A stretch of 12,200 nt of DNA from an uncultured Faecalibacterium sp. (lineage in GTDB: Bacteria > Bacillota > Clostridia > Oscillospirales > Ruminococcaceae): the NCBI GenBank assembly GCA_934525735.1, contig CAKSZM010000057.1, forward strand, positions 1 through 12,200, read 5' to 3'. The position numbers were made by a program, and so were the translations under genes. Positions within the stretch are counted from its first letter, which is position 1; each line of letters begins with the position of its first letter. Positions 1 through 12,200 of the stretch are shown in pieces. A model generated the notes under the pieces. The model had not been told where the DNA came from, searched no databases, and was given only the letters and a program-made list of their open reading frames with translations.

Positions 1-59
1 TTTTCCTTGGAGAGGTTGAAGCACATGGAAACATTGTCCACTTTGATGATCGGTTCCAT
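1..59 (-). CDS. Polysaccharide ABC transporter ATP-binding protein, 5' end only
   Basis: Only the first 19 codons are in the window, starting MEPIIKVDNVSMCFNLSKE and running off the left edge. The IKVDNVSMCFN pattern is the usual first beta strand of an ABC ATPase, ahead of the Walker A motif, which is not in view. The ATG at 59 is preceded by AAGGAGG at good spacing, and that site overlaps the TAA stop of the upstream permease, so the two are translationally coupled. Pairing with an ABC-2 permease of the Wzm/TagG type suggests a Wzt/TagH-type ATPase that powers export of an undecaprenyl-linked polysaccharide or teichoic acid. The assignment leans on the neighbour because so few residues are visible. 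Confidence 0.75.
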   Translation of the reverse strand, partial: MEPIIKVDNVSMCFNLSKE

Positions 60-71
60 TGTTCTTCCTCC

Positions 72-881
72 TTAAATGTGCAGCACAAAGCGGTCCTGCG
101 TTTTGCGGAACACGCTCACGCCCACCAGCATGGACAGCACCGCGCAGATGCCGCACACGGCAAACATATTGAAATCCAGCGGGATGCCCCACATCACAGT
201 ACGGCGGAAACCCGTGATGTACCAGTACATAGGGTTCAGCTTGATGATCTGCTGCATATTGAACCCGCCGATGGAAAAGGTCATCTGGGTGGGGTCGTAG
301 AAGATGGCGGAGAAATACAGCAGCGCCGTGATGAACACGCTCCAGATGTGCATGATATCCCGGAAGAACACCGTGGCTGCCGCCAGAAACAGACCCACGC
401 CCAGGCTGAAGAAGAACAGAGTCACCAGCGGGTACACTGCCTCGATCAGGGTGAGGTGGAAGGGCGCGCCGGTAAAGATCATCACCAGCAGCAGCGCCAC
501 AAAGCTGAACACACAGTTCACCATGGCAAAGCAGCACTTTTCCAGCGGGAAAATATACTTGGGGATATACACCTTTTTCAGCAGCGGGGCCGCGCCGAGC
601 ACGCTGCCCATGCTGGTGGAAGTTGCCTCGTTGAAGAAATTGAACAGCAGCTGGCCGCACATCAGAAAGACGGCAAAGTTGTCGATGCCGCTGCCGCGCA
701 TGTCCATCAGACTGCTGAACACCGCCCAGTACACAAGACACATCAGCAGCGGGTTCAGCACACTCCACACCACGCCCAGAAAACTGCGGCGGTATTTGAG
801 CTTGAAGTCACGGCTGACGAGGTTCCACAGCAGATAGCGGTAGCGCCAGAAGCCGTTCCACATTGCGTTCCATTTTGCCAC
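72..881 (-). CDS. ABC-2 type polysaccharide export permease (Wzm/TagG family)
   Basis: A 269-residue membrane protein, the normal size for Wzm/TagG permeases, which form the channel that moves lipid-linked O-antigen, capsule or teichoic acid across the inner membrane. An amphipathic N terminus carries the family pattern SRDFKLKYRRSFLGVVWSVL (residues 23-42). Six hydrophobic segments follow at about 38-57, 68-84, 113-137, 150-172, 178-195 and 238-257, with the typical FFRDI motif at 172-176. The start is a GTG at 881, only 6 bases after the stop of rfbC, with a weak ribosome site (GGTGAT), so it probably depends on coupling; an ATG at 863 is possible but has no better site. The ATPase gene follows 12 bases downstream. 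The exported polymer is not identified; the preceding rfbC hints at a rhamnose-containing glycan. Confidence 0.9.
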   Translation of the reverse strand: MAKWNAMWNGFWRYRYLLWNLVSRDFKLKYRRSFLGVVWSVLNPLLMCLVYWAVFSSLMDMRGSGIDNFAVFLMCGQLLFNFFNEATSTSMGSVLGAAPLLKKVYIPKYIFPLEKCCFAMVNCVFSFVALLLVMIFTGAPFHLTLIEAVYPLVTLFFFSLGVGLFLAAATVFFRDIMHIWSVFITALLYFSAIFYDPTQMTFSIGGFNMQQIIKLNPMYWYITGFRRTVMWGIPLDFNMFAVCGICAVLSMLVGVSVFRKTQDRFVLHI

Positions 882-887
882 GGGCGA

Positions 888-1454
888 TCACCACTTTTCA
901 AAATATTCAAACTTCTGGGCAGCAAACGGCTCGTGCAGCTTGTCCTTTGCGCTGGTCTTGTGCTCGCAGCCGCAGTCCGGCCACTGCACATTGACGGTAG
1001 GGTCATCGTAGGGGATACCGCCCTCGCTGGTGGGGTCGTAGACGTCGGTGCACTTATAGCAGAACTCCGCCACATCGCTCAGCACGAGGAAGCCGTGGGC
1101 AAAGCCCTCCGGGATATAGAACATCTTCTTGTTGTCTTCGGACAGGGTGACGCCCACCCACTTGCCGAAGGTAGCGCTGTGGGGGCGGCAGTCCACGGCC
1201 ACGTCGAACACCTCGCCCTTGGTCACGCGCACCAGCTTGCCCTGGGTGTGGTTTTTCTGGAAGTGCAGGCCGCGCAGCACGCCGCGGGTGGAGCGGCTCT
1301 GGTTGTCCTGCACGAATTCCTTGTCGATGCCGGCTTCGGCAAACTGATCCTTCTGGTAGGTCTCCATAAAGTAACCGCGGTCGTCGCCGAACACCTGCGG
1401 CTCAATGACCACAACACCGGGGATCTCGGTCTGAGTAAACGTAAACTTGCCCAT
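888..1454 (-). CDS. rfbC: dTDP-4-dehydrorhamnose 3,5-epimerase
   Basis: A 188-residue cupin enzyme of the dTDP-L-rhamnose pathway. It epimerises C3 and C5 of dTDP-4-keto-6-deoxyglucose before the final reduction by RfbD. Family marks are FGDDRGYFMETYQ near 22-34, NQSRSTRGVLRGLHFQ (51-66) with the likely catalytic base His64, YIPEGFAHGFLVLSD (113-127), and FCYKCTDVYDP (131-141) with Tyr133 as the likely catalytic acid and Tyr139 nearby. Length matches the family. The ATG at 1454 is preceded by GAGAGG nine bases upstream. It lies directly ahead of the ABC exporter genes, so it probably supplies activated rhamnose for the polymer they export. rfbA, rfbB and rfbD are not in the window. Confidence 0.96.
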   Translation of the reverse strand: MGKFTFTQTEIPGVVVIEPQVFGDDRGYFMETYQKDQFAEAGIDKEFVQDNQSRSTRGVLRGLHFQKNHTQGKLVRVTKGEVFDVAVDCRPHSATFGKWVGVTLSEDNKKMFYIPEGFAHGFLVLSDVAEFCYKCTDVYDPTSEGGIPYDDPTVNVQWPDCGCEHKTSAKDKLHEPFAAQKFEYFEKW

Positions 1455-1497
1455 ATTCTTGTACCTCTCTTTTTTGAAGCATTTTTTGATCTATTGG

Positions 1498-1523
1498 AAA
1501 AGTCTGTTTTTGCGCGGACTTTT
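1498..1523 (-). terminator. Weak hairpin between the dac gene and rfbC
   Basis: Seven-base arms AAAAGTC (1498-1504) and GACTTTT (1517-1523) are perfect complements around a 12-base loop, just after the stop of the carboxypeptidase gene on the minus strand. The U-rich arm resembles an intrinsic terminator, but the stem has only three G-C/C-G-containing steps at its core and no long U run follows. It may terminate only partly, leaving read-through into rfbC. Confidence 0.4.
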
Positions 1524-1527
1524 ACGC

Positions 1528-2865
1528 TTATTTGCTGTGGCGGCCTTTCTGCTGCGCCCGCCGGGCCTTGCGGCGTCTGCGCCGCGCCTGCAGCCGGATG
1601 ACCAGCACGGTCACGCCCGCCGCCGCTGCCGTGGAACCCAGCGAGATGCCCAGCAGCCAGAGCGCATGGCTCTTGGGCCTGACGTCCTTTGCCGCTTCCA
1701 GTTCGGTGCCGGTGCCGGCCTCCAGCAGTTCGGTCAGGCCGGAAAGCTCCGCCTCCACCCGGACGCTGGTATTTTCCTGTTTTCCGCCGCCTTTGATGGT
1801 GTACACGGCATAGGCTTCCGGTTCCGCCCCCAGCACCCAGCGCTCCGGCAGTTCCAGCGAGACCTCCACTTCCTTTGCCGTCAGGCCGTCGGCCAGCAGC
1901 AGCTTTACGCCCGGGTCGGTGACAGTCACAGTACCAAGGCTCCCGCCGCCGCCCGCCACATCCAGCTGCGCCGTGATGCCCTGCGAGGGCAGTTCGGTAT
2001 AGCCGGTGAAGGTGCTGAACGCATAATCCAGCAGAGTGCGCACATCGTTGTATTTATCGGTGCTCAGCTCACTCTGCATCGTCACGCAGATGAGCCGGAT
2101 GCCGTTCTGCTCGGCAAGGCAGGCGTAGCTGTAGCGCGCCGTATTGGTGTAGCCCAGTTTGGAGCCGATGACCGACGCGATGTGATACCGGCTGGAACCG
2201 ATGCGCATTTTATCCTGCTGCGAAAAGTACCGGGTCACCGGCTGCAGGTTGGTGGGCTGCATGGTGTACATCTCGTTGCGGGTGAACACATCTTCAAACC
2301 CCGGCTGTTCCAGCGCCCAGCGCAGGATCTGCGCCATGTCGTAGCAGCTGGTATAGTGGTCGTCGCCGCTGATGCCGTGCGGGTTTGCAAAGTGGGTATG
2401 CTTCAGCCCCAGCTGTTCCGCCTGTTCATTCATCTTTTCCACGCCGCCGTCGATGGTTCCGCCGCCGATGTATTCGGCCAGCAGATTCGCGGCGTCGTTG
2501 GCGCTGGCCATCTGGGTGGCATACAGCGCATCGGTCAGGGGCACCTGCTCCCCTTCCAGCAGAGCAATGTGGCTGGAATCGGTGCCTGCCAGCGAATAGA
2601 CATCGTCATGGCTCACCGTCAGTTTTACACCGTCCCAGTTCCCCTGCGCCTTTTCGCAGGCAAGCCCCAGCGTCATCACCTTGGTGATGGACGCCGGGTG
2701 CAGTTCTTCGTTCATATTCTGCTGCGCCAGCACAAGGCCGGTATCCGCATCGATGATGCAGTAGGCGCGGGTAGCGCTGAGGGCGGGGCCGGCTGCCGCC
2801 GCCCCCGGCACGAACACACAGACCGCAAGCAGTACGGCGCAGAGCACCGCTGTCCATTTTCTCAT
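1528..2865 (-). CDS. D-alanyl-D-alanine carboxypeptidase (PBP5-like, peptidase S11)
   Basis: A 445-residue membrane-anchored DD-carboxypeptidase that would remove the terminal D-Ala from peptidoglycan pentapeptides outside the membrane. From the chosen start it has a signal peptide (about 1-25, ending in GAAAAG), the catalytic SxxK as SITK (Ser59, Lys62), the SxN triad as SAN (121-123), and a third motif at 236-238 that reads KLG instead of the usual KTG. A C-terminal beta-rich domain (about 275-390) precedes a transmembrane segment near 400-420 and a strongly basic cytoplasmic tail. The ATG at 2865 fits a signal peptide and has GGGAG upstream; the open frame extends to 2967, but that would put charged residues before the signal. 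It begins 61 bases after dpaB on the same strand, which suggests a role in spore cortex or septum peptidoglycan, like DacF or DacB. Which paralogue it is cannot be settled here. Confidence 0.9.
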   Translation of the reverse strand: MRKWTAVLCAVLLAVCVFVPGAAAAGPALSATRAYCIIDADTGLVLAQQNMNEELHPASITKVMTLGLACEKAQGNWDGVKLTVSHDDVYSLAGTDSSHIALLEGEQVPLTDALYATQMASANDAANLLAEYIGGGTIDGGVEKMNEQAEQLGLKHTHFANPHGISGDDHYTSCYDMAQILRWALEQPGFEDVFTRNEMYTMQPTNLQPVTRYFSQQDKMRIGSSRYHIASVIGSKLGYTNTARYSYACLAEQNGIRLICVTMQSELSTDKYNDVRTLLDYAFSTFTGYTELPSQGITAQLDVAGGGGSLGTVTVTDPGVKLLLADGLTAKEVEVSLELPERWVLGAEPEAYAVYTIKGGGKQENTSVRVEAELSGLTELLEAGTGTELEAAKDVRPKSHALWLLGISLGSTAAAAGVTVLVIRLQARRRRRKARRAQQKGRHSK

Positions 2866-2926
2866 CCGGGTTTTCTCCCTCGAAAATTTTTTCTGCCTGT
2901 CGTACCGCACCGGCAAAGCATCAAAA

Positions 2927-3556
2927 TCAGTATACCACATTTTGCCCCGGCTGAAAAGAGATTGCATGTTCCCTTTGCCCCAGCAGCACCGGCTGCAGCT
3001 GCCGCTCCTGCAGGGCCGCCGCCAAAGCCTCCGGCAGGAGAGCGAAATCTGCTTTCAGGCTGTTGGGTTTTGCCGCCGGATCATCCTGCCCGTAGGGTAC
3101 AAAATAGATGTGCTTGCGCTGATAGAGCCGGGCGATGTTCTCGCCGGAAGCCCCCAGCCCGTCGTTGGTGGAAACGGCCAGAAGCACCGGTTTTCCGGTC
3201 CGGAGCAGGCTTTTGGCCGCCAGCGTCACCGGGGTCTCCGAAAGGCCTGCCGCAAGCCTTGCCAGCGTAGCTCCGGTGCAGGGCGCGACGACCAGCGCCC
3301 GGGCCAACTGCCGCGGCCCGAGCGGTTCCACGGCCTGCAGCGAGTCCAGAACCGGGTGCCCGGTAAGGGCTTCCAGCCGCTGTTTCCAGCTGTTTCCGGT
3401 GCCGAAGCGCGTATCCTGCTTCGCCGCAAAGCTCATGACGGGCAGCAGTTCCCAGCCCTGCCGGGTCAGTGCTTCCGCCGACACCAGCGCCGCTTCCAGT
3501 GTGCAGAAGCTGCCGCACACCGCAAAGGCGATGCAGCCTTTTTTCTCTGTGGTCAT
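2927..3556 (-). CDS. dpaB: Dipicolinate synthase subunit B
   Basis: A 209-residue flavoprotein-fold subunit (SpoVFB) that works with DpaA to make dipicolinic acid from the lysine-pathway intermediate in the mother cell of a sporulating cell. Family patterns are clear: FAVCGSFCTLEAAL near 11-24, APCTGATLARLAAGLSETPV around 91-110 with the following AAKSLLR, STNDGLGASGENIARL near 128-143, and HIYFVPYGQDDP close behind. Length is normal (about 200 residues). Its ATG shares an ATGA overlap with the stop of dpaA, so the two subunits are translationally coupled. The carboxypeptidase gene follows 61 bases downstream. Presence of dpaAB is a strong sign that the organism forms, or recently formed, endospores. 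Confidence 0.95.
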   Translation of the reverse strand: MTTEKKGCIAFAVCGSFCTLEAALVSAEALTRQGWELLPVMSFAAKQDTRFGTGNSWKQRLEALTGHPVLDSLQAVEPLGPRQLARALVVAPCTGATLARLAAGLSETPVTLAAKSLLRTGKPVLLAVSTNDGLGASGENIARLYQRKHIYFVPYGQDDPAAKPNSLKADFALLPEALAAALQERQLQPVLLGQREHAISFQPGQNVVY

Positions 3557-4341
3557 GTCCGTCCCTCCCGCTCCCGCAAAATCGTGATCACCGTGCGCGC
3601 CACCGCCTCGCCTGCCGTTTCCGGCGCACAGGCGGCAGGCAGGCTCAGGGCATGGATGGCCCGGTGCCCCAGCTGCCGGGCCGCTTCAAAGTCAGTTCCG
3701 CCGGGTTTTGAAGCCAGATCCACGATCAGGCTGCCCGGCCGCAGCGCCGCCAGTACCGGTGCCGTGAGCACCCGTGCCGGGATGGTGTTTACCACCGTGC
3801 CAAAGACCGGTGCCAGCGCGCCGAGGCGGCAAAGCTCTGCCCCGCGCAGACCAAGGCTTTCGGCAAGCGCCCGCTGTTCCGGGCGGCGGGCACAGACCGT
3901 CACCTCCGCGCCCAGCGCTTTCAGCCGCACCGCCAGCGCCTGCCCCACCGGGCCGAATCCCAGCACCAGAAGGTTTGTGCCCCATAAGGTGCGGGTGCGC
4001 TCCTTCAGCAGGATGCTGATACAGCCCTCCGCCGTGGGGATGGCATTGTAAACGGTCAGCTCCGGCCGGGCGAAGTAATCCGCCAGCTCAACCCCGGCCT
4101 CCCGGGCGATGGCCTTTGCCTCTTCCGACACCCTGCCGCCCAGTGCCAGCGTCCCGGGCCGCGCCGCCCGCAGCAGCTCTGCCAGCGGGGTGCGGGCGGC
4201 GTCCAGCGGCAGGGGCAGCAGGATATAATCCGCCAGCGCCACCTGTTCGGCCCCGCCCACGGCATAGCCCGCCCGTTCCAGCGCCCGGCCTGCCGCCGCC
4301 TGCCGGGCATCGGTGCCCACCACCGCAAAGCGCTTTTCCAC
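3553..4341 (-). CDS. dpaA: Dipicolinate synthase subunit A
   Basis: A 262-residue NAD(P)-binding subunit (SpoVFA) of dipicolinate synthase. The N terminus has the VGTDARQ pattern expected at the start of the family, ELTVYNAIPTAEG (94-106) is a strong family signature, and the Rossmann motif GFGPVG lies at 128-133. DLASKPGGTDF and the C-terminal LPAACAPETAG segment also match. It is somewhat shorter than the Bacillus protein (close to 300). The start is a GTG at 4341, preceded by GGGAGGGAG with about 7 bases spacing. It is the first gene of dpaA-dpaB-dac, and a SigK-like promoter sits about 30 bases upstream, which agrees with late mother-cell expression of spoVF in Bacillus. Confidence 0.94.
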   Translation of the reverse strand: MEKRFAVVGTDARQAAAGRALERAGYAVGGAEQVALADYILLPLPLDAARTPLAELLRAARPGTLALGGRVSEEAKAIAREAGVELADYFARPELTVYNAIPTAEGCISILLKERTRTLWGTNLLVLGFGPVGQALAVRLKALGAEVTVCARRPEQRALAESLGLRGAELCRLGALAPVFGTVVNTIPARVLTAPVLAALRPGSLIVDLASKPGGTDFEAARQLGHRAIHALSLPAACAPETAGEAVARTVITILREREGRT

Positions 4342-4370
4342 GCAAGCTCCCTCCCTTTCCGGTTGTGAGC

Positions 4371-4399
4371 CATCCTATGCGGGAGGAAGCATTTGGGTG
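4371..4399 (-). promoter_or_regulatory. Candidate SigK-type promoter for dpaA-dpaB-dac
   Basis: On the minus strand a CACC element (4399-4396) is followed, after exactly 16 bases (4395-4380), by CATAGGATG (4379-4371). This fits the published SigK pattern of mACm, 15-16 bases, then gCATAnnnTa, apart from the last base; the base before CATA is also the expected G. The predicted start would leave a leader of about 20-25 bases that just holds the dpaA ribosome site. SigE shares the CATA part of the -10, so a SigE promoter is the main alternative. Confidence 0.55.
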
Positions 4400-4400
4400 A

Positions 4401-4570
4401 CGGAACGATTTTAAATGCTCTCCGCTTGCGCTCTGAGCATCTTCAGCGGAATTTTGGTTTTTTATATTTGCTCCTTCGGAACGACTGCGGTCGTTCCGAA
4501 GGAACATTCTCATGAGAGGGGGCGCAGTGGGAAGCAGCAGCAAAACGGTTCTCTGCCCTGCTGCAAAACG
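4401..4570. repeat. Cluster of inverted repeats with a perfect 14-bp-arm palindrome
   Basis: This gene-free stretch holds several dyads. The strongest is at 4472-4503: 14-base arms (TCCTTCGGAACGAC and its exact complement) round a TGCG loop. Part of its arm, CGGAACGA, recurs at 4401-4408. Between them, ATGCTC (4415-4420) pairs with GAGCAT (4435-4440), and TCCGCT (4421-4426) pairs with AGCGGA (4445-4450), in interleaved order as in an H-type pseudoknot. TCTCATGAGA (4508-4517) is a 10-base palindrome, and near-identical 13-mers ending in GCAAAACG lie at 4535-4547 and 4558-4570. The big hairpin is not followed by a T run on either strand, so it is not a standard terminator. It may be a dispersed palindromic element or a regulatory region ahead of dpaA. 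Confidence 0.6.
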
Positions 4571-4571
4571 C

Positions 4572-4608
4572 AAAAAGGGACTGCCATGCATCTGCATAGC
4601 AGTCCCTT
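4572..4608 (-). terminator. Rho-independent terminator of the ECF S-component transcript
   Basis: Perfect ten-base arms AAGGGACTGC (4575-4584) and GCAGTCCCTT (4599-4608), with a further ATGC/GCAT pairing inside the loop. On the minus strand the stem is followed by a run of five U (4576-4572). It lies 46 bases past the stop of the ECF gene and separates that transcript from the dpa unit. The A-rich flank on the other side means weaker termination is possible on the plus strand. Confidence 0.85.
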
Positions 4609-4654
4609 AAAAATTATCGTTACGGATGCGCCGCCCTGACTTTCAGCACATCAC

Positions 4655-5248
4655 TTATTTTACAAACTTTGCCACGGCACGGGCCACGATACCGCCCAGA
4701 ATGCCGGAGACCAGGAACTCGGCCACGCCCTGGATGCCCACCAGCAGCACCACGAACATGAAGGGGTTCGCAGCACCCTTGACCGACACCAGATTCTGCA
4801 CGTAATCGCAGCCGTAGAAGGCCAGCACGATGTAGCCCATGAAGAACAGGGTGTTCAGGGCCGGGGCACACATGGCGCTGACGATGTAGCTCCAGGTGCC
4901 GGGCTTGTCAAAGCGCTTCAGGCCGCTGAAGATCAGACCCACGCACAGACCCATCAGCACGCGCATACCCACACACAGGATGAAGGTGTTGACCGGGCTG
5001 ACCTGGAACAGGGCACCGGTCATGGCCGATGCGCCGGTGATGGCGTCATAAAAGCTCACTGCACCGAACACGCCGCCCAGCAGCGCACCCACAGCGGGGC
5101 CCATGGTGATGGCGCCCACTGCGATGGGAAGGGTCAGAAAGCTCATGTACAGCGGGCCCATGGGCACGCTGCCCAGACCCACAAGCTTCATGACCAGTTC
5201 AATGGCAACCAGCAGTGCCACACGGGTAAGAGTCTTAGTATTTTTCAT
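4655..5248 (-). CDS. ECF transporter S component, candidate pantothenate uptake (PanT-like)
   Basis: A 197-residue, very hydrophobic protein with about six membrane segments, the size and form of a substrate-binding S component of an energy-coupling-factor vitamin transporter. Residues 10-65 carry the usual first two helices with small-residue runs (GPLYMSFLTLPIAVGAI, 31-47, and MGPAVGALLGGVFGAVSF, 49-66), the part that docks with EcfT in this family. The ATG at 5248 has AGGAGG ten bases upstream; the open frame runs on to 5302 but without a better start. No EcfA or EcfT is nearby, as is normal for group II systems with a shared module. The substrate is inferred from context: coaX and coaBC lie just upstream, so pantothenate is the best guess. 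Folate, riboflavin or another vitamin cannot be excluded from sequence by eye. Confidence 0.8.
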   Translation of the reverse strand: MKNTKTLTRVALLVAIELVMKLVGLGSVPMGPLYMSFLTLPIAVGAITMGPAVGALLGGVFGAVSFYDAITGASAMTGALFQVSPVNTFILCVGMRVLMGLCVGLIFSGLKRFDKPGTWSYIVSAMCAPALNTLFFMGYIVLAFYGCDYVQNLVSVKGAANPFMFVVLLVGIQGVAEFLVSGILGGIVARAVAKFVK

Positions 5249-5334
5249 ATTCAGTTTTCCTCCTGCTGCCGTTCCGCCCTCAGAATGTCGGATACGGCGC
5301 AAACCTGCCCGCTCTTTGCGGGTTTTGTGTAAAT

Positions 5335-5363
5335 ATTCGAACCGTTGGAGCGCGTTTTGTCAG
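5335..5363 (-). promoter_or_regulatory. Possible SigA promoter ahead of the ECF S component
   Basis: On the minus strand CTGACA (5363-5358) and TCGAAT (5340-5335) are separated by 17 bases, matching 5 and 4 of 6 consensus bases. It lies in the 137-base gap between the oxidoreductase stop and the ECF start, about 85 bases before the ATG. A small CCCGC/GCGGG hairpin lies in the leader between them. If real, the ECF gene has its own promoter besides read-through from coaX. Confidence 0.35.
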
Positions 5364-5385
5364 GGCGTGTTCCAATGAAAATGGC

Positions 5386-6363
5386 TTATTCGCCGGGGAA
5401 GCGGATGCCCGCCGTGCGGCGCGCCACAGTCAGCACCCGGCTGACCGCGATGGAGGTATCCTGCATGCGGGTGCACAGCTCCTGATCGCCGCTTTCCAGT
5501 GCGCGGGCAAATGCCTCAAACTCTGCCGCCTGCCGGGGGCGGCCGCCGTTGAGGTTGTAGTGTTCCTCCTTGCCCTCGTTGGGGTGGAAGGTGATGCCGC
5601 CGCAGAAGTTGGCCGTGGATTTCTGCTGGATGTAACCCTTTGTGCCCTGAATGATGTACCGGGCCGGGGCGGCGCAGTCTTTGGCGGCGATGCTCACCGC
5701 CCGGAAGCCGCTGTAATCCATGGTCAGGATGCCGCTGGTGTCGATGCCGCGTTCCACGTTGGCGGTGTAGTGCACCTGATTCGGCTCGCCGAACAGGCCC
5801 ACGATGTAGCTGACGTTGTACACGCCCAGATCCATCAGGGCGCCGCCTGCACAGGCCGGGTCGAACACCGGCGGAGTCTCGCCTTTGCAGAATGCATCGT
5901 ACCGGCTGGAATACTGGCTGAAGCTGCACTGCACCAGCTTCACGGTGCCGATGCGGGGCAGCAGCTCCCGGATCTTTGCGTAATTTTCAAGGTACTGGGT
6001 GGTAACGGCCTCGAACAGAAACACCTTTTTGTGCCGCGCCAGCCGGATCAGTTCTTCAGTCTGGGCTGCCGTGGGGGCCATGGGCTTTTCCACAATGACA
6101 TGCTTGCCGGCATCCAGTGCAATGCGGGCATACCGCACATGCTGCAGGTTCGGCACCGCGATATACACCGCGTCCACCCATTGGAGCAGTTCCAGAAAAT
6201 TGGTGGTACGCTGCGGCACGCCGTATTTTTCGCACAGCTCCTGCGCAAGCGCTGCGCTGCGGGGCGTCGAGCAGACAGCCTGCACCGTAAACGGCGTGTG
6301 TTCCGCAAGCCACGGCAAAAATTCCTGCACGATCTTGCCCGTGCCAAGAATGCCTAATTTCAT
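5386..6363 (-). CDS. Gfo/Idh/MocA family oxidoreductase
   Basis: A 325-residue NAD(P)-dependent dehydrogenase of the Gfo/Idh/MocA family, usually acting on sugars, inositols or related hydroxy compounds. The N-terminal Rossmann fold shows LGILGTGKI (3-11), the AVYIAVPNLQHV strand-loop near 65-76, and the hallmark HVIVEKPMAPTAAQ (88-101) with the EKP cofactor and active-site motif. The C-terminal substrate domain has GGALMDLGVYNVSY near 175-188. Length is typical. It starts 24 bases after the coaX stop, so the two are probably cotranscribed. The substrate cannot be read from the sequence, and family members are often bystanders beside unrelated genes. A role in pantothenate or CoA metabolism is possible only by association. 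Confidence 0.9.
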   Translation of the reverse strand: MKLGILGTGKIVQEFLPWLAEHTPFTVQAVCSTPRSAALAQELCEKYGVPQRTTNFLELLQWVDAVYIAVPNLQHVRYARIALDAGKHVIVEKPMAPTAAQTEELIRLARHKKVFLFEAVTTQYLENYAKIRELLPRIGTVKLVQCSFSQYSSRYDAFCKGETPPVFDPACAGGALMDLGVYNVSYIVGLFGEPNQVHYTANVERGIDTSGILTMDYSGFRAVSIAAKDCAAPARYIIQGTKGYIQQKSTANFCGGITFHPNEGKEEHYNLNGGRPRQAAEFEAFARALESGDQELCTRMQDTSIAVSRVLTVARRTAGIRFPGE

Positions 6364-6387
6364 GTTGTTCTCCCTATCCTTCTTCTC

Positions 6388-7284
6388 TCAGTCCGCCTGC
6401 GGTTCCGGTTCGCGGCGGGTGCGCCTTTTGGGGTATGGGCGGGGTCTGGCATGGCTGTGCCGGTTCTGCCCGGCATAATGTCTGCCGCCGCCTGCGCCGC
6501 GGCCGGGGTGCTGGGGCGCATTGAGCTGGTACAGCAGCGCCAGCCCCTTCATCAGCAGTTCCGGGTCGTAAGTCAGCGGATGGCGGCACAGCGGCGTGAC
6601 ATACTTTGCCAGCCCGCCCGTGACCACCAGCGTGGCCGGGCAGCCCAGTTCTTCCTCGATGCGCTGCACCATGCCGTCGATGAGCACAGCTGTGCCCATC
6701 ACCGAGCCGGTCAGCATGCATTTTTCGGTATTGGTGCCGATGGCGCTCTTCGGCGAACCGAGGTGCACCTGCGGCAGCTGGGCGCAGCGTTCGCCCAGCG
6801 CCCGCAGCCCGGTGGAAAGCCCCGGGCAGATCACACCGCCCCGGAACACCCGGTTCTCATCCACCACGTTGAAGGTGGTGGCGGTGCCCAGATCCACCGT
6901 GACCACCGGCAGCGGGAAGTTTGCCGCCGCGTAAGCCGCATCCACAAGGCGGTCCTTGCCCACGGCACCCGGTTCGTCCACGCCCATGGTCAGCCCGGTG
7001 CGGATCTCCGGCGAAACGATGACCGGTTTTTTACCGGTATAGTGACGGGCGCACTCGGCCAGCGCCCCGGTGATCTGGGGCACCACGCTGGTCAGCACAG
7101 CGCCCTCAAACCGCATGGGCCGCTCCGGATGGCGGCGGTGCGCAAATATTTTATCCATTTCGGCACGATATTCTGCAGCCGTGCGGGTGCGCACCGTGTC
7201 CATGCGCGCCACAAAGCATACACGTCCGTCCTTGATGCCCCCGAGGGCGACGGTGGTGTTGCCTATATCAATGGCTAAGATCAT
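6388..7284 (-). CDS. coaX: Type III pantothenate kinase with a basic C-terminal extension
   Basis: CoaX phosphorylates pantothenate, the first committed step of coenzyme A synthesis. It belongs to the ASKHA fold, is not inhibited by CoA and usually needs a monovalent cation. Visible motifs are AIDIGNTT (4-11; Asp6 and the phosphate loop), VGKDRLVDAAYAA (108-120), VTVDLGTATTFNVVD (128-142, with Asp131) and RGGVICPGLSTGLRAL (148-163). VVTGGLAKY (220-228) closes the nucleotide site. The kinase core ends near residue 256, the normal family length. About 42 further residues rich in Gly, Arg, His and Pro follow, with no recognisable fold. The ATG at 7284 has a modest AAAGGGA upstream. It heads a minus-strand transcript with the oxidoreductase and perhaps the ECF gene, divergent from coaBC. 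Confidence 0.95.
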   Translation of the reverse strand: MILAIDIGNTTVALGGIKDGRVCFVARMDTVRTRTAAEYRAEMDKIFAHRRHPERPMRFEGAVLTSVVPQITGALAECARHYTGKKPVIVSPEIRTGLTMGVDEPGAVGKDRLVDAAYAAANFPLPVVTVDLGTATTFNVVDENRVFRGGVICPGLSTGLRALGERCAQLPQVHLGSPKSAIGTNTEKCMLTGSVMGTAVLIDGMVQRIEEELGCPATLVVTGGLAKYVTPLCRHPLTYDPELLMKGLALLYQLNAPQHPGRGAGGGRHYAGQNRHSHARPRPYPKRRTRREPEPQAD

Positions 7285-7347
7285 AGTTTTATTTTTCCCT
7301 TTGTAAATGGGTCATGGCGGAAGTCCGTCTATTATTTGTCAAGCTGT

Positions 7348-7376
7348 ATTTTACCGCATTTTCGCCTGAGATACAA
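7348..7376 (-). promoter_or_regulatory. Candidate SigA promoter for coaX
   Basis: On the minus strand TTGTAT (7376-7371) and TAAAAT (7353-7348) are spaced by exactly 17 bases, which would start transcription near 7341 and leave a leader of about 57 bases. A TTGACA sequence further in (7342-7337) is a perfect -35 match but has no good -10 at the right distance. Confidence 0.5.
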
Positions 7377-7394
7377 GTCCGCGCAAAGATTTTG

Positions 7395-7423
7395 TTGTGC
7401 TGGCGGAACTTTTGCATTATACT
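7395..7423 (+). promoter_or_regulatory. Candidate SigA promoter for coaBC
   Basis: TTGTGC (7395-7400) and TATACT (7418-7423) are separated by 17 bases; the -10 is a 5 of 6 match. Transcription would begin near 7430, about 40 bases before the coaBC start. It is back to back with the coaX promoter, their -35 elements about 19 bases apart, so one regulator could act on both. Confidence 0.55.
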
Positions 7424-7470
7424 AAGGTAAGATATGTGGAAACAGTACGTTTTTGCAGGAGGTCAGACCA

Positions 7471-8667
7471 ATGGATTTAAACGGAAAGTGCGTCCTTCTG
7501 GGCGTCAGCGGCGGCATTGCCGCCTATAAAATGGCAAACGTTGCCAGCGCTCTGCGCAAGCTGGGAGCCGACGTGGAGGTCATCATGACCCAAAACGCCA
7601 CCCAGTTCATCACCCCCCTCACCTTCGAGACCCTCACCGGCCACAAGTGCATGGTGGACACCTTCGACCGGGACTTCAAGTTTGAAGTCACCCATATCTC
7701 CCTTGCCAAAAAGGCGGATGTGATCCTTGTGGCACCCGCCACCGCCAATGTCATCGCCAAGATGGCACACGGCATCGCGGATGATATGCTCACCACGGTG
7801 GTGCTGGCTGCCAAGTGCCCCAAGCTGGTCTCCCCGGCCATGAACACCGGTATGCTGGAAAACCCCATCACGCAGGACAATCTCGCCACGCTGGAACGCT
7901 ACGGCTTCACGGTCATCCCGTCCGAAAGCGGCGTGCTGGCCTGCAAGGACGTGGGCAGCGGCCGCCTGCCGAAGGAAGATGTGCTCATTGAATACATCCT
8001 GCACGCCATCGCCCGCCCGAAGGATCTTGCCGGGGTGCGGCTGGCCGTCACCGCCGGGCCGACGCAGGAGCCGCTGGACCCGGTGCGCTACCTGACCAAC
8101 CACTCCACCGGCAAGATGGGCTACGCCATCGCCCGGGCCGCCGCCATGCGCGGCGCAGAGGTCACGCTCATCCACGGCGAGACCGCCCTGCCGCCGGTCA
8201 AGTTCACCACCGACGTCCCGGTGACCACCGCGCAGCAGATGTACGAGGCCGTTACCGGCCGGTTTGAGGACACCGATGTGCTCATCATGGCCGCCGCCGT
8301 GGCCGACTACCGCCCCGCCAGCGTCGCCGCCGACAAGATCAAGAAAAAGGACGGCGACATGTCCATTCCGCTGGAGCGCACCCCGGACATTCTGGGCACC
8401 ATCGGCCCGCAGAAGACCCGCCAGTTCCTGTGCGGTTTTTCCATGGAGACGAAGGATCTTGTGGAAAACTCTTCCGCCAAACTGAAAAAGAAGAATCTGG
8501 ACATGGTGGTGGCCAACAACCTCAAGGTAGCCGGAGCCGGTTTCGGCGTGGACACCAATGTGGTCACCTTTATCACCCCGGACGGCACCCGGGAGCTGCC
8601 CCTGATGAGCAAATCCGACGTGGCCGACGCCATTCTGGATGAGATTTTAAAGCGGCGGTCTGAATAA
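7471..8667 (+). CDS. coaBC: Bifunctional phosphopantothenoylcysteine decarboxylase / phosphopantothenate-cysteine ligase
   Basis: A 398-residue fusion that joins cysteine to 4'-phosphopantothenate (CoaB half, CTP-dependent) and decarboxylates the product to 4'-phosphopantetheine (CoaC half, FMN-dependent), steps two and three of CoA synthesis. CoaC part, about 1-180: GVSGGIAAYK (11-20), THISLAKKADVILVAPATAN with the active-site His75, SPAMNTGM (121-128) with Asn125, and GVLACKDVGSGRLP (154-167) with Cys158. CoaB part: VTAGPTQEPLDPVRYLTN (193-210), STGKMGYA (212-219), AAAVADYRP (274-282) and DKIKKKDG (288-295), Lys289 being the likely CTP contact. The ATG at 7471 is chosen because a perfect AGGAGG lies at 7458-7463, inside the longer frame that opens with TTG at 7453. 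It is divergent from coaX, completing one pathway. Confidence 0.97.
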   Translation: MDLNGKCVLLGVSGGIAAYKMANVASALRKLGADVEVIMTQNATQFITPLTFETLTGHKCMVDTFDRDFKFEVTHISLAKKADVILVAPATANVIAKMAHGIADDMLTTVVLAAKCPKLVSPAMNTGMLENPITQDNLATLERYGFTVIPSESGVLACKDVGSGRLPKEDVLIEYILHAIARPKDLAGVRLAVTAGPTQEPLDPVRYLTNHSTGKMGYAIARAAAMRGAEVTLIHGETALPPVKFTTDVPVTTAQQMYEAVTGRFEDTDVLIMAAAVADYRPASVAADKIKKKDGDMSIPLERTPDILGTIGPQKTRQFLCGFSMETKDLVENSSAKLKKKNLDMVVANNLKVAGAGFGVDTNVVTFITPDGTRELPLMSKSDVADAILDEILKRRSE

Positions 8668-8682
8668 CAGCCGGATAACAGC

Positions 8683-8720
8683 AAAGGCTGCTGCACAGAA
8701 TTTTGTGCAGCAGCCTTTTT
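8683..8720 (+). terminator. Strong rho-independent terminator of coaBC
   Basis: Perfect 15-base arms AAAGGCTGCTGCACA (8683-8697) and its complement (8704-8718) enclose a GAATTT loop; the T run at 8716-8720 follows on the plus strand. It sits 15 bases after the coaBC stop. The minus-strand gene ends at 8751, so the stem may also end that convergent transcript, though its U run there is only three bases. Confidence 0.92.
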
Positions 8721-8750
8721 CTGTTTCCGGCTCATGCCGGCGGTTCGGTT

Positions 8751-10728
8751 TTACTGGATGAGGCCTTTCTGTTTCGCCTGCTCCCACGTGGTGCAGACGC
8801 GCAGTCTGGATACGCGGGCATAAGGCCGGAACAGCTGTTTCCCTTCCACGTGATCCACGTTCAGGATCTCCTGTTCCACAGCCCAGCTTGCAGCCTTGTT
8901 CTGGTAGACGTCTTCATCCTCCATATCACTGTAAACCACAACAGCTTCAGGTTCCGGTTTTCCAGCCTTTTCCCAGAGCAGCTTTGCCAGTTCAATGCGG
9001 TCGGTGGGCATCGGAGCGCCCTGCATGCTCACCGCACGGTAGATACCGGTGCCGGCTTCGTAGGCGCCCCATGCAAGTACGCCGCCTGCCAGAACGGCAC
9101 CGACGATGCCGCAGCCGTCGCCGCTGCCGCCTTCGCCCGGGTCGATGACGTCTGTCTGATACACAGCCGTTACCTTCACATTGTAGTCCGGCATGGTAAA
9201 GGCAGCTGTCGTCTCATCGTCCTTCGAAGGGTTCAGAAGGCCGGTCACCACGGAGCCGTCCTCCCGCTGCACCGTCCAGCCCATAAAGGTGCCGTTGCCG
9301 GGCTGAACTGCCGTCACCGTCACCGGGGTGTCGACGGGCACGACCGTTGTGCTGTCGAGGGTCTGTTCGCCTGCGCCGAGATCTGCCGTTGCAACAGCGT
9401 CTTCGGCGGTGACAATACAGCCGTCGGCCGGAGCAAGATAGCGGAACTCCGCGCCGTCGGTCACCTTCTTGCAGCCGATCACATAGCCTTCATTCTGGCT
9501 GATCAGGTTCAGATTTTTCTGGTAAGGAGAGTCCTCGTTGTCCGTTGTGATCTGCCGCCCCTGCGTGGGGTCCTCCACCCGGATCTTTGCCGTACCGGTA
9601 AAGCTTTTTTTGATGTTGATCTGCTGGTCTTTGCCCAGACTGATATCGTCGGTATTATTCTCAAAAGTCACAGCCTTCAGCGTGATCTCCGAATCGCCTG
9701 CATCGGTGATGCGGACACCGGTCGCGCTGTTGCGGATGGTACCGCCGTTCAGCTGTGTGTCGCCGCTCTCGCCCGAAATATCAATGGCGGTGCCGTTCGG
9801 TGCTTCCACCGTGCCGCCATTCAAGCGCAATCCGCCGCGGTTTCTGATGGTGATCTCAGAATCTGAGGTAAAGTTACCGCCGTTGATCCTCAGCTGTCCC
9901 CAGTTATTGTCAATACAGCTGGCTCCGGTGGCGGTAAATTCGCCATCCTCGACCGTGAAGCTGGCCGAACTGTTCACGACACAGCGATAGCCCTCGCCCG
10001 ACTGATATGTTCCGCCGTCAATTTTAACTGTGCTCGTACTGTAAATAACATATTCATCCGATGTTGCTTTCACATCGTTCAGGTTGATGGTGCCTCCGGA
10101 ATATGCCCAGAACACCGCTTTATTTGTACCTGTTCCGACGTGTTTGTAAACGCCTCCGTTGATGTCCACAATACCGCCAGTGCACGTCACGGCGTATCCG
10201 GTATCCGATTCGCCATAGGTTTCGCCATCGAAGTCATTCAGCGTAACGTGTCCGCCATAAACCATGATCAGATTTCGGAGCTTCGTTTTATATGTTCCGC
10301 CCTGAACCGTCACATCTCCGGCATAGACATCCATAAAATGATGCAGTGCTGCTGTGCAATCCACTGTGTGCCCATCGTTTTCAATCGTTACTGTTCCGGC
10401 TTTCTGGATCAGGATAAAAATGTCATTGACCCTTTTGTAAGCCACATCTCCGATAATTTTTATCGTTACAGGCTTTTGTAATTCTTCCGCATCAGTGATA
10501 TTGACTGTAACCCTGCCAGTATAGTCGTCGCCCTGTATTTCATAGGTACCGCCTTTGGTAATGGTCATACCCGTTGTCGGGATCACGGTAACGGTTTCCG
10601 CCTGCCCGCTTACGCTGCTTTCAGACTCCGTACCCCCCCCCCGTTGCAAATGCACTCACCGGAAGAACAGATGTCATCATGCACGCCGCAAGCGCTGCAC
10701 TGATGAGCCGTGTACCAAGTTTTTTCAT
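8751..10728 (-). CDS. Secreted beta-helix surface protein with SLH-like C terminus, frame broken at a poly-G tract
   Basis: The gene starts at the ATG at 10728 (AGAGGG eight bases upstream) with a textbook signal peptide, MKKLGTRLISAALAACMMTS then VLPVSAFA, cleaved near residue 28. Ten G (10642-10633) follow at once, and in this frame translation stops at TGA 10623-10621 after 35 residues. The body lies one frame over, open from 10655 to 8751. With nine (or twelve) G the two join as a 658- or 659-residue protein. That protein would have a right-handed beta-helix at about 75-390 with repeated GG-T/V-x-L/I-NGG turns, a 455-525 repeat ending TMPDYNVKVTAVYQ like the InlB-type surface repeat, a glycine-rich hydrophobic stretch near 540-560, and an SLH-like segment at 574-658 (RIELAKLLWEKAGKPEPE, then WAVEQEIL). 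It is probably wall- or membrane-held at the surface; its ligand is unknown. A sequencing indel or pseudogene are alternatives, but the rest of the frame is intact. Confidence 0.8.
10633..10642 (-). repeat. Poly-G (10) homopolymer tract at the signal-peptide junction
   Basis: Ten consecutive C on the plus strand (G on the coding strand) lie directly after the codons for SAFA-Thr of the surface protein. It is the longest homopolymer I see in the window. Lengths of 9 or 12 keep the body in frame; 10 gives TGA after three more codons and 11 gives TAA after nine or so, so two of every three lengths switch the protein off. Confidence 0.95.
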
Positions 10729-10758
10729 GGTTCAATCCCTCTCTATTTCGTTATTTTT

Positions 10759-10774
10759 TCTGCCGGACGGCAGA
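10759..10774. promoter_or_regulatory. Palindrome in the 5' leader of the surface-protein gene
   Basis: Seven-base perfect arms TCTGCCG and CGGCAGA with a 2-base spacer. It begins about 5 bases after the predicted transcription start and 30 bases before the ATG. It could be a 5'-end hairpin that stabilises the mRNA or a dimeric operator; nothing decides between them. Confidence 0.45.
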
Positions 10775-10785
10775 TTTACAACTAA

Positions 10786-10813
10786 AGTATAGCATCTCTG
10801 CCATAAAACGCAA
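10786..10813 (-). promoter_or_regulatory. Candidate SigA promoter for the surface-protein gene
   Basis: On the minus strand TTGCGT (10813-10808) and TATACT (10791-10786) are spaced by 16 bases. The -10 matches 5 of 6; the -35 only half. Transcription would start near 10779, giving a leader of about 50 bases. Confidence 0.45.
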
Positions 10814-10869
10814 TGTGCAGCCGACACCGGATATCGGCAAAATTTTCTCCTGTTTTTCAGCAGAATGCC

Positions 10870-10913
10870 AAAAAACACCGGCTGTGCAGCCGTTCAGGCC
10901 TGCAAAACCGGTG
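10870..10913 (-). terminator. Rho-independent terminator of the degV gene
   Basis: On the minus strand CACCGG (10913-10908) pairs with CCGGTG (10881-10876), with an inner GCAG/CTGC pairing, and six U follow (10875-10870). It lies 43 bases after the degV stop and protects the surface-protein promoter from read-through. A second small GGCAC/GTGCC hairpin (10940-10952) directly after the stop has no U run. Confidence 0.82.
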
Positions 10914-10955
10914 CTTTCGGGGGTGGGGGTATTTTTGAAGGCACTCTGTGCCGGG

Positions 10956-11804
10956 TTACTTTTCCTTCCGTGCAAACACGATGCCGATGGTGCCCGGGCC
11001 GGAGTAGCCGCCGATGGTGGTGCCGATGTCGGTCTCATAGCACTCGGCAAAGCTGCCGTATTTCTTCAGGCCGGCTTTCACGGCGTCCATGCAGCCGGGC
11101 TTCGGCTGGCAGGAAGAGATGAACACCAGTCCGTCCTCGATATCGTCCCGTCCGGCCAGACGGTCGGTGATGTACTTGCCCACGCAGATGGGCAGGCTGC
11201 CGCGATACTTCTTGACCACTTTCAGCTCGCCGTCGATCACTTCCAGCGCCGGTTTGATGCCCAGCAGGTTGGCGCCGAAGGCCAGCACGCCGGAGCAACG
11301 GCCGCTTTTGGCCATGAAGTCCAGCCGGTCCAGCACAAAGCTCAGCTCCACCCGCTTTGCAAGGCTTTGCAGCCGCATCTGGATGGCGCGGGGTGTCAGG
11401 CCGTCGGCTGCCCACTTTGCCGCCCGCAGCACGAGATATCCCTGCCCGGTGCAGATGTTCTGACTGTCCACCACATAGACGTTCTCAAACTCGCCCGCCG
11501 CCAGCTTTGCATTCTGGTAGCAGGACGAAAGCTTGCTGCTGACCGAAATATGGATGACCGCGTCATATTCCTTGGCGTAATTTTCAAAGAAATCGGTGTA
11601 TTCCACCAGATTGGCCGCCGCAGATTTGGGCATTTTGCCGCCTGCATTCACATAGGCGAACACATCCGCCGGGCGGACGGTGACACCGTCCAGATAGCTT
11701 TCTTCCCCCATCAGGATGTGCATGGGCATCAGAGTGATGTCCCATTTGCGCAAAAGTTCTTCGGACAGGTCGCAGGTGCTGTCCGCAGTGATCTTGATCT
11801 TCAC
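10956..11804 (-). CDS. DegV/FakB family fatty-acid-binding protein
   Basis: A 282-residue DegV-fold protein. Characterised members (FakB) hold a fatty acid and present it to the kinase FakA, which makes acyl-phosphate for phospholipid synthesis. The N terminus IKITADSTCDLSEELL (3-18) and the following MPMHILMGEESYLDG are typical. SVSSKLSSCYQNAKLAA (87-103) and VVDSQNICTGQGYLVLRAA (111-129) form the lipid-site loops, and LDRLDFMAKSGRCSG in the second half matches the second conserved block. The loop usually reading TSQ or KTSA here reads PKSAAAN (59-65). A GTG at 11804 is chosen as start because AAAAGGAG lies seven bases upstream; the longer frame from 11852 would bury that site. No fakA (Dak-like kinase) is beside it, as is common. 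The substrate chain length cannot be told. Confidence 0.92.
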   Translation of the reverse strand: MKIKITADSTCDLSEELLRKWDITLMPMHILMGEESYLDGVTVRPADVFAYVNAGGKMPKSAAANLVEYTDFFENYAKEYDAVIHISVSSKLSSCYQNAKLAAGEFENVYVVDSQNICTGQGYLVLRAAKWAADGLTPRAIQMRLQSLAKRVELSFVLDRLDFMAKSGRCSGVLAFGANLLGIKPALEVIDGELKVVKKYRGSLPICVGKYITDRLAGRDDIEDGLVFISSCQPKPGCMDAVKAGLKKYGSFAECYETDIGTTIGGYSGPGTIGIVFARKEK

Positions 11805-11869
11805 GTTGTTTCTCCTTTTCATGAACCTTTTGCAGGCCCGCGGCCCGCACACAGAAACATTTCCCTCTT

Positions 11870-11899
11870 ATTTTATCACAAATCGCTCAAATTTGTGAA
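11870..11899 (-). promoter_or_regulatory. degV promoter with an overlapping inverted-repeat operator
   Basis: On the minus strand TTCACA (11899-11894) and TAAAAT (11875-11870) lie 18 bases apart, with the extended -10 bases TGA just before the latter; both hexamers match 5 of 6. A perfect dyad, TCACAAAT-N7-ATTTGTGA (11876-11898), fills the space from -35 to -10. A further TCACAAAT copy lies at 11911-11918 and a variant TCACAAAATCGC at 11968-11979. The placement is what a repressor site would look like, possibly a lipid-responsive MarR- or FapR-type regulator, though the motif does not match one I can name. Confidence 0.6.
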
Positions 11900-11938
11900 G
11901 TATTCTTTTTTCACAAATGTAAATCTTTTATGAAGGCG

Positions 11939-11958
11939 CCGGGCGGCCCGGTTTTCTT
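11939..11958 (+). terminator. Terminator-like hairpin with no plus-strand gene before it
   Basis: CCGGG (11939-11943) and CCCGG (11947-11951) form a short GC-only stem with a 3-base loop, followed by TTTTCTT. It has the shape of a small intrinsic terminator on the plus strand, but the nearest upstream genes are all on the minus strand. It may end antisense transcription or be chance in GC-rich DNA. Confidence 0.3.
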
Positions 11959-12020
11959 GTACACATATCACAAAATCGCAAAAGGATTTATGGTTCTTTC
12001 CGAAAATTCGGTTTTACCTG

Positions 12021-12049
12021 TTTATTTTGTCCGCCAAAAATTATATAAT
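12021..12049 (+). promoter_or_regulatory. Candidate SigA promoter for murC
   Basis: A perfect TATAAT (12044-12049) lies 72 bases before the murC ATG; the best -35 at 17-base spacing is a weak TTTATT (12021-12026). Transcription would start near 12056. The leader contains a short repeat, ATCGAACGG then ATCGAACCGG (12063-12081). Confidence 0.55.
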
Positions 12050-12120
12050 AAGATGTATCCCAATCGAACGGATCGAACCGGTCTGCTCTGCGGCCGTTAA
12101 TTATTTGGAGGTTGCCTTAT

Positions 12121-12200
12121 ATGTTCATGTACACCGATTACAACCAGCATCTGCTGGACAATGTAAAAAAGATCCACTTCATCGGCTGCGGCGGCAGCGG
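12121..12200 (+). CDS. murC: UDP-N-acetylmuramate-L-alanine ligase, 5' end only
   Basis: The first 26 codons are present and run off the right edge. After a short N-terminal stretch, VKKIHFIGCGGSG matches the GxGGxG nucleotide-sugar-binding loop that opens MurC, which adds L-Ala to UDP-MurNAc in the cytoplasm using ATP. The Cys in place of the common Ile after FIG is a variant known to me from Clostridia. The ATG at 12121 has TTGGAGG nine bases upstream. The Mpl ligase shares this loop and cannot be fully excluded from so few residues. Confidence 0.82.
   Translation, partial: MFMYTDYNQHLLDNVKKIHFIGCGGS

Follow-up and report, generated by a model that had tools for sequence, protein, structure and literature searches.

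A run of ten G in a gene of an uncultured Faecalibacterium sp. is, in our judgement, very probably a contingency locus that turns a wall-attached surface protein on and off by slipped-strand changes, caught here in the OFF state. The gene lies in a stretch of 12,200 nucleotides (GenBank assembly GCA_934525735.1, contig CAKSZM010000057.1, positions 1 to 12,200), referred to below as the window. Relatives with identical protein bodies sit in different reading frames at the G run, and for this reason the run looks like a genuine on/off switch.

A ten-G run lies between an export signal and an intact protein body

The gene stands alone on the minus strand; its neighbours are a gene of the DegV family and coaBC, which converges on it (Table 1). 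It opens with a typical export signal of 28 codons starting at ATG 10728, and the ten-G run begins with the last base of the Thr codon directly after ...PVSAFA and spans codons 29-32, placing a long simple repeat in the 5' part of the coding frame. An earlier note on this DNA had described a signal peptide and a 626-residue body that are both intact and offset in frame, the offset falling at the ten-G run directly after the predicted cleavage site (judged by eye), and had taken the window to be in the OFF state. Reading both frames confirmed each of these points: the signal-peptide frame hits a TGA after 35 codons, and the body frame runs uninterrupted between the G run and its stop, with 626 codons and no other lesion. 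A consensus scan of the window listed neither of the candidate promoter elements, TTGCGT (-35) and TATACT (-10), that are given in the table. The body itself contains a further homopolymer, seven A on the coding strand, at window positions 9605-9611.

Table 1. Features of the surface-protein gene and its surroundings in the window
Feature	Window positions	Strand	Remarks
DegV-family gene	10956-11852		neighbour
Candidate -35 element TTGCGT (weak)	10808..10813	-	by eye; 16 nt from -10
Candidate -10 element TATACT	10786..10791	-	read from sequence
Shine-Dalgarno-like AGAGAGGG	10737..10744	-	8 nt 5' of ATG 10728
Signal peptide codons, MKKLGTRLISAALAACMMTSVLPVSAFA	10645..10728	-	28 codons; cleavage placed after AFA by eye
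Run of exactly ten G, proposed slippage tract	10633..10642	-	frame differs here among relatives
TGA closing the signal-peptide frame at the tract length seen here	10621..10623	-	product of 35 codons
Surface-protein body, 626 residues plus stop (8753-8751)	8751..10631	-	frame other than that of the signal peptide
Predicted right-handed beta-helix	9630..10598	-	about residues 20-342 of ORF 8751-10655
InlB B-repeat-like domain PF18998	9153..9377	-	21.9 bits, slightly below the cut-off of 23.6
Hydrophobic Gly/Ala-rich stretch preceding the C-terminal module	9060..9116	-	Kyte-Doolittle mean 1.57 over 19 residues
SLH-like C-terminal module	8766..9065	-	common to other aligned proteins with like signal peptide
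Terminator-like hairpin between the converging genes	8683..8718	not assigned	found on + strand
coaBC	7453-8667		neighbour, convergent

The rarity of the G run as the sole argument for a switch was considered and rejected, since runs of at least seven G are no rarer in the window than in shuffled sequence. At this threshold the window has four overlapping matches, all within the ten-G run, against a shuffle mean of 3.92, and 101 of 200 shuffles reach four, so that the window is not unusual by this measure. For runs of at least ten G or C, a first-order Markov model of the window gives an expectation of 0.076. GGG serves for 4 of the 75 glycine codons in the remaining body and for 21 of 181 in six neighbour genes; because it is rare among the gene's glycine codons, a glycine run written entirely in G is not a habit of this gene. 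The strong argument is the placement of the run and its behaviour in relatives, with rarity as modest evidence.

Relatives occupy three frames at the same junction

A database search with the body scored 7976 candidates, and 5101 of these entries were homologous at E up to 0.001. We examined the best 120 of the 5101, here called family 1. We refer to an entry as ON when the signal peptide is in frame with the body, as OFFa when the protein starts inside the leader in the second frame (MQRGGGT, MHLLWGGGT), and as OFFb when the leader is read in the third frame (...HQCSACGMHDDICPSGQCTCSGGGT). All three kinds of N-terminus converge in the same glycine run, and the third frame of the window's own leader, HQCSACGVHDDICSSGECICNG, resembles the OFFb forms in the database, being almost the same peptide.

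Among these best 120 of 5101 entries, 112 could be typed (25 ON, 76 OFFa and 11 OFFb) and the other 8 start inside the body; these are counts of entries, mostly from unnamed assemblies, in which some OFF forms may be homopolymer errors, some proteins in this listing or in that of the second family are present with two start calls that were left unmerged and inflate the numbers (for example P0298/P0299 and P0036/P0039), and the most populous entries have the longer ON or OFFb forms as their representatives, so that the counts do not equal population frequencies. The 20 best-scoring entries (P0001-P0020, 75-97% identity) comprise 8 ON, 6 OFFa and 6 untyped. P0001, which is 97% identical, is OFFa and belongs to the same class as the window, and P0002 (96%) is ON; natural copies with the signal peptide in frame therefore exist among the ON relatives.

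The N-termini of the OFF forms are this leader translated in a different frame. For one ON/OFFb pair in each of two families (the second is described below), a single DNA sequence is able to encode the two peptides over 21 of 21 codons, and in a control of 11,988 comparisons between the family-1 ON peptide and pieces of 60 proteins the maximum was 5 codons.

Changes of frame were common between close relatives. Family 1 contains 56 pairs of bodies with at most three differing residues. In 24 of these pairs the frames are different, and 13 of the 24 have identical bodies, falling into seven groups of which one occurs in all three frames; entries with identical bodies may come from one sample. 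The identity in these groups extends across more than 600 body residues; P0054 (OFFa), P0098 (ON) and P0117 (OFFb), whose frames are all different, are identical over 624. A body tree (FastTree), which ignores recombination, requires at least 19 ON/OFF changes, against a mean of 22.9 in shuffles, and at least 28 changes of the three-state label, for which shuffles have a mean of 32.9 and a range of 26-36. The states of family 1 are somewhat clumped on the tree, so switching has not wiped out ancestry. Frame switching at this junction thus appears to be recent and frequent, with some ancestry remaining in family 1.

The OFF bodies, judged from their sequences, do not seem to be decaying and have almost no further damage. 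In family 1 the 87 typed OFF bodies are 589-631 residues long, and across both families an odd C-terminus was found in one of 178 typed OFF entries (P0024), as compared with two of 38 ON entries (P0008, P0278). P0024 resembles one clade in its N-terminal part and the other in its later part, and has the odd C-terminus; it looks like either a recombinant of surface-protein genes or an assembly chimera.

The lengths of the G run in relatives can be inferred from the proteins if all glycines are assumed to be encoded by GGG and the last one by GGT. On this assumption the family-1 runs have 7, 8, 9, 10, 11 or 12 G in 22, 8, 24, 52, 3 and 1 entries, respectively (110 of the 112 typed entries; P0096 by hand), and those of the second family 6-11 or 15 (100 of 104 typed entries).

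A second family shows the same pattern behind a like signal peptide

Searching with the first 42 residues of a close ON relative, which detects in-frame forms only, returned 116 entries with N-termini 65-100% identical to the query. Like signal peptides head many bodies (P0121-P0228), including those of leucine-rich-repeat surface proteins, and are followed by a glycine run in some proteins and not in others (SAFALEGS..., SAFAAQPAAA...). One such family, here family 2, joins a like signal peptide to a different body, about 930 residues long. With residues 31-500 of P0142 as query, 371 entries were retrieved among 7992 scored candidates, and of the best 120 of these 371, 104 were typed (13 ON, 75 OFFa, 16 OFFb) and 16 were not; the cautions on entry counts given for family 1 hold for these numbers as well.

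Family 2 appears from these entries to have the same three-state frame pattern at the same junction as family 1. Among its 44 near-identical pairs, 11 have different frames, and in ten of these, which form six groups, the bodies are identical. Its tree has at least 13 ON/OFF changes and 26 three-state changes against a shuffle mean of 26.9, with no signal of clumping, and the 91 typed OFF bodies are 923-941 residues long, none with an odd C-terminus. In both families together, OFFa forms that start inside the leader account for 151 of the 240 examined entries; being out of frame, these entries probably carry wrongly annotated N-termini.

We regard as evenly balanced the broader proposal that one lineage of gut Clostridia has a shared export cassette, consisting of the signal peptide and the glycine-coding G run, at the head of several diverged families of surface proteins. 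Such a cassette would give each genome a combinatorial, randomly switched repertoire on a common SLH-like anchor, with beta-helix parts diversified by divergence and possibly by recombination, amounting to a Campylobacter-like phasome in abundant commensals.

Weighing a switch against error, decay and expression slippage

The frame states bear on three other accounts of the split gene. Homopolymers of about ten bases are prone to error, and the true tract could have one fixed, in-frame length whose G's were miscounted in the window; that the well-populated database entries have ON or OFFb forms as their representatives would agree with this. We consider it very improbable, because out-of-frame forms make up 87 of 112 typed entries in family 1 and 91 of 104 in family 2, too many for errors off a single length, because the inferred lengths range from 6 to 15, and because P0001, a 97% identical entry, is in the same OFF class as the window. 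The frame is broken in the window, as it would be in an ordinary pseudogene that had suffered a one-off frameshift in the course of decay. Against such decay stand the 626 codons free of any other lesion, the occurrence of different frames with identical bodies, the usual C-terminus in 177 of 178 typed OFF bodies, none of which is shorter than 589 residues (family 1) or 923 (family 2), and the breakage of the same junction in two different families, which together make a pseudogene extremely unlikely. Where the earlier note had proposed looking for a fixed nine G in reads and strains and for extra frame damage in orthologues, we found three frames among relatives, also among identical bodies, and almost no damage, one of the 178 OFF bodies (P0024) being odd.

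Intact bodies in all three frames would also fit slippage along the G run during transcription or translation, by which some full-length protein would be made from every tract length and changes of length would be nearly neutral. This account is, in our view, very improbable: for the similar G-tract loci of Bifidobacterium breve, pilus-like structures are reported in in-frame derivatives and none in the out-of-frame parent (PMC9187656). The reading of the G run as a contingency switch, which the earlier note had advanced as slipped-strand phase variation, is instead borne out, as far as sequences can speak, by the three frames among relatives and the intact OFF bodies. As in contingency loci, the frame differs between very close relatives, including those with identical bodies (the run lengths themselves being inferred), and the gene is otherwise intact when OFF.

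On the switch reading, replication slippage would add G's to the run or remove them, and the length modulo three would decide whether the export signal and the body are joined. In the one length class that is ON, ribosomes would continue past the signal peptide through the body, and the beta-helix protein would be exported and anchored to the wall through its SLH-like end. Translation in the two remaining classes would end soon past the signal peptide, and the short peptide alone would be made. We infer that replication slippage is the cause, that it is reversible within a population, and that the protein is exported and attached to the wall, where it may act in adhesion or in the avoidance of antibodies or phages.

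The predicted protein combines a beta-helix with an SLH-like end

The secreted surface protein of the earlier note can be described more closely as a predicted right-handed beta-helix with a C-terminus resembling S-layer-homology (SLH) domains, an assignment that rests on structure models. In the predicted structure the protein has the beta-helix fold and the C-terminal module has the SLH fold. Against the Pfam SLH profile, neither the ORF nor six relatives nor the C-terminal phage-collection match described below gave a hit at E up to 1, and the C-terminal piece alone gave none at E up to 0.5. A sequence search of the PDB gave no solved chain at E up to 0.01. Using Foldseek, neither of two models had a PDB match under E 0.001, and the first model had one viral match under this threshold, to a tail-fibre model with a TM of 0.1; a second, aligned structural comparison was clearer. 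The LPXT[GAN] motif is absent from the 634-residue ORF, and there is no sortase or pilin cluster at the locus, whose two neighbours are the DegV-family gene and coaBC. The likeness to beta-helix adhesins of the PfbA type (PDB 4mr0, 3zpp), like that to phage tailspikes and polysaccharide-active beta-helices, is one of fold only, with no match in sequence to a solved chain.

Relation to known switches

The closest known case is the G-tract pilus switch of Bifidobacterium breve, a member of the Actinobacteria and not of the Clostridia. There, a G-tract switches sortase-dependent pili ON and OFF at bbr_0113 and bbr_1889 of strain UCC2003, a tract of about 10-11 G splits the Sec-signal ORF from the body ORF at these two pilin loci of one genome, and error-corrected sequencing has shown that populations contain a mixture of tract lengths (PMC9187656). 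Both the host, a gut commensal, and the layout, with a G-tract between signal-peptide ORF and body ORF, are like those described here. The B. breve genes differ in forming an LPXTG pilin cluster with a sortase, whereas here the predicted beta-helix protein with its SLH-like end stands alone; the two proteins are unrelated and from different phyla, and the B. breve mechanism was tested by experiment, whereas ours is proposed from sequence.

In the contingency genes of Campylobacter and Neisseria a homopolymer or short repeat likewise lies inside the frame of a surface protein, and its length sets the gene ON or OFF. Such poly-G/C and short-repeat genes include pilC and opa. HmbR/HpuAB is a further example (PMC3786947). 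These systems differ from the present one in their Gram-negative hosts and in their products, which are outer-membrane proteins or surface-sugar enzymes unrelated to this protein. In Gram-positive repeat switches, among them Pil1 of S. gallolyticus and SclB of Streptococcus pyogenes, a surface protein is governed by changes of repeat number close to the 5' end. They differ from the present gene in their repeat units and proteins. For Pil1 of S. gallolyticus, a repeat switch of a Gram-positive surface protein, the title of the report indicates an attenuation-like mechanism (PMC3894217).

Homopolymer switching had been called little described in gut Clostridia, and a search of titles and abstract openings in the open literature indeed found no such switch there; the statement needs qualifying in that a nearly identical layout has been published for B. 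breve (PMC9187656). The kind of switch is already known, and what is apparently new is its occurrence in Clostridia, in at least two families. If the switch reading is true, a type of gut Clostridia alters its coat at random by turning proteins on and off, in the manner of mucosal pathogens, which bears on the escape of commensals from antibodies and phages, on strain differences between hosts and on annotation, given how many of the examined entries are out-of-frame forms started inside the leader.

Searches of other collections and a further locus in the window

Scans of genome contigs with the ORF and with alignment A1 gave 9 and 53 pattern-matching stretches, none of which was confirmed. 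A scan of viral-contig proteins with alignment A1 gave 178 such stretches, again none confirmed, and a viral-contig scan with a degenerate signal-peptide pattern gave no matches. The plasmid collection gave no match to the surface protein; the best match there to the neighbouring CoaBC was from Pusillibacter faecalis (Oscillospiraceae), at 69.6%. An Oscillospirales-like member of the Clostridia is the likely host on this evidence and that of the dipicolinate-synthase-like genes described below, and the signal peptide would fit a relative of Faecalibacterium or Gemmiger. In the phage collection there was one weak C-terminal match, to MT837719.1, with 36.8% identity over 13% of the query. At positions 2-583 this sequence, labelled Bacteriophage sp., has a like C-terminal module beside ORFs that by eye look bacterial, and it is probably a mislabelled bacterial fragment. 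Elsewhere in the window, at 2927-4341, a dipicolinate-synthase-like pair (DpaA_N and flavoprotein domains) adjoins a D-Ala-D-Ala carboxypeptidase gene, which suggests spore-forming ancestry.
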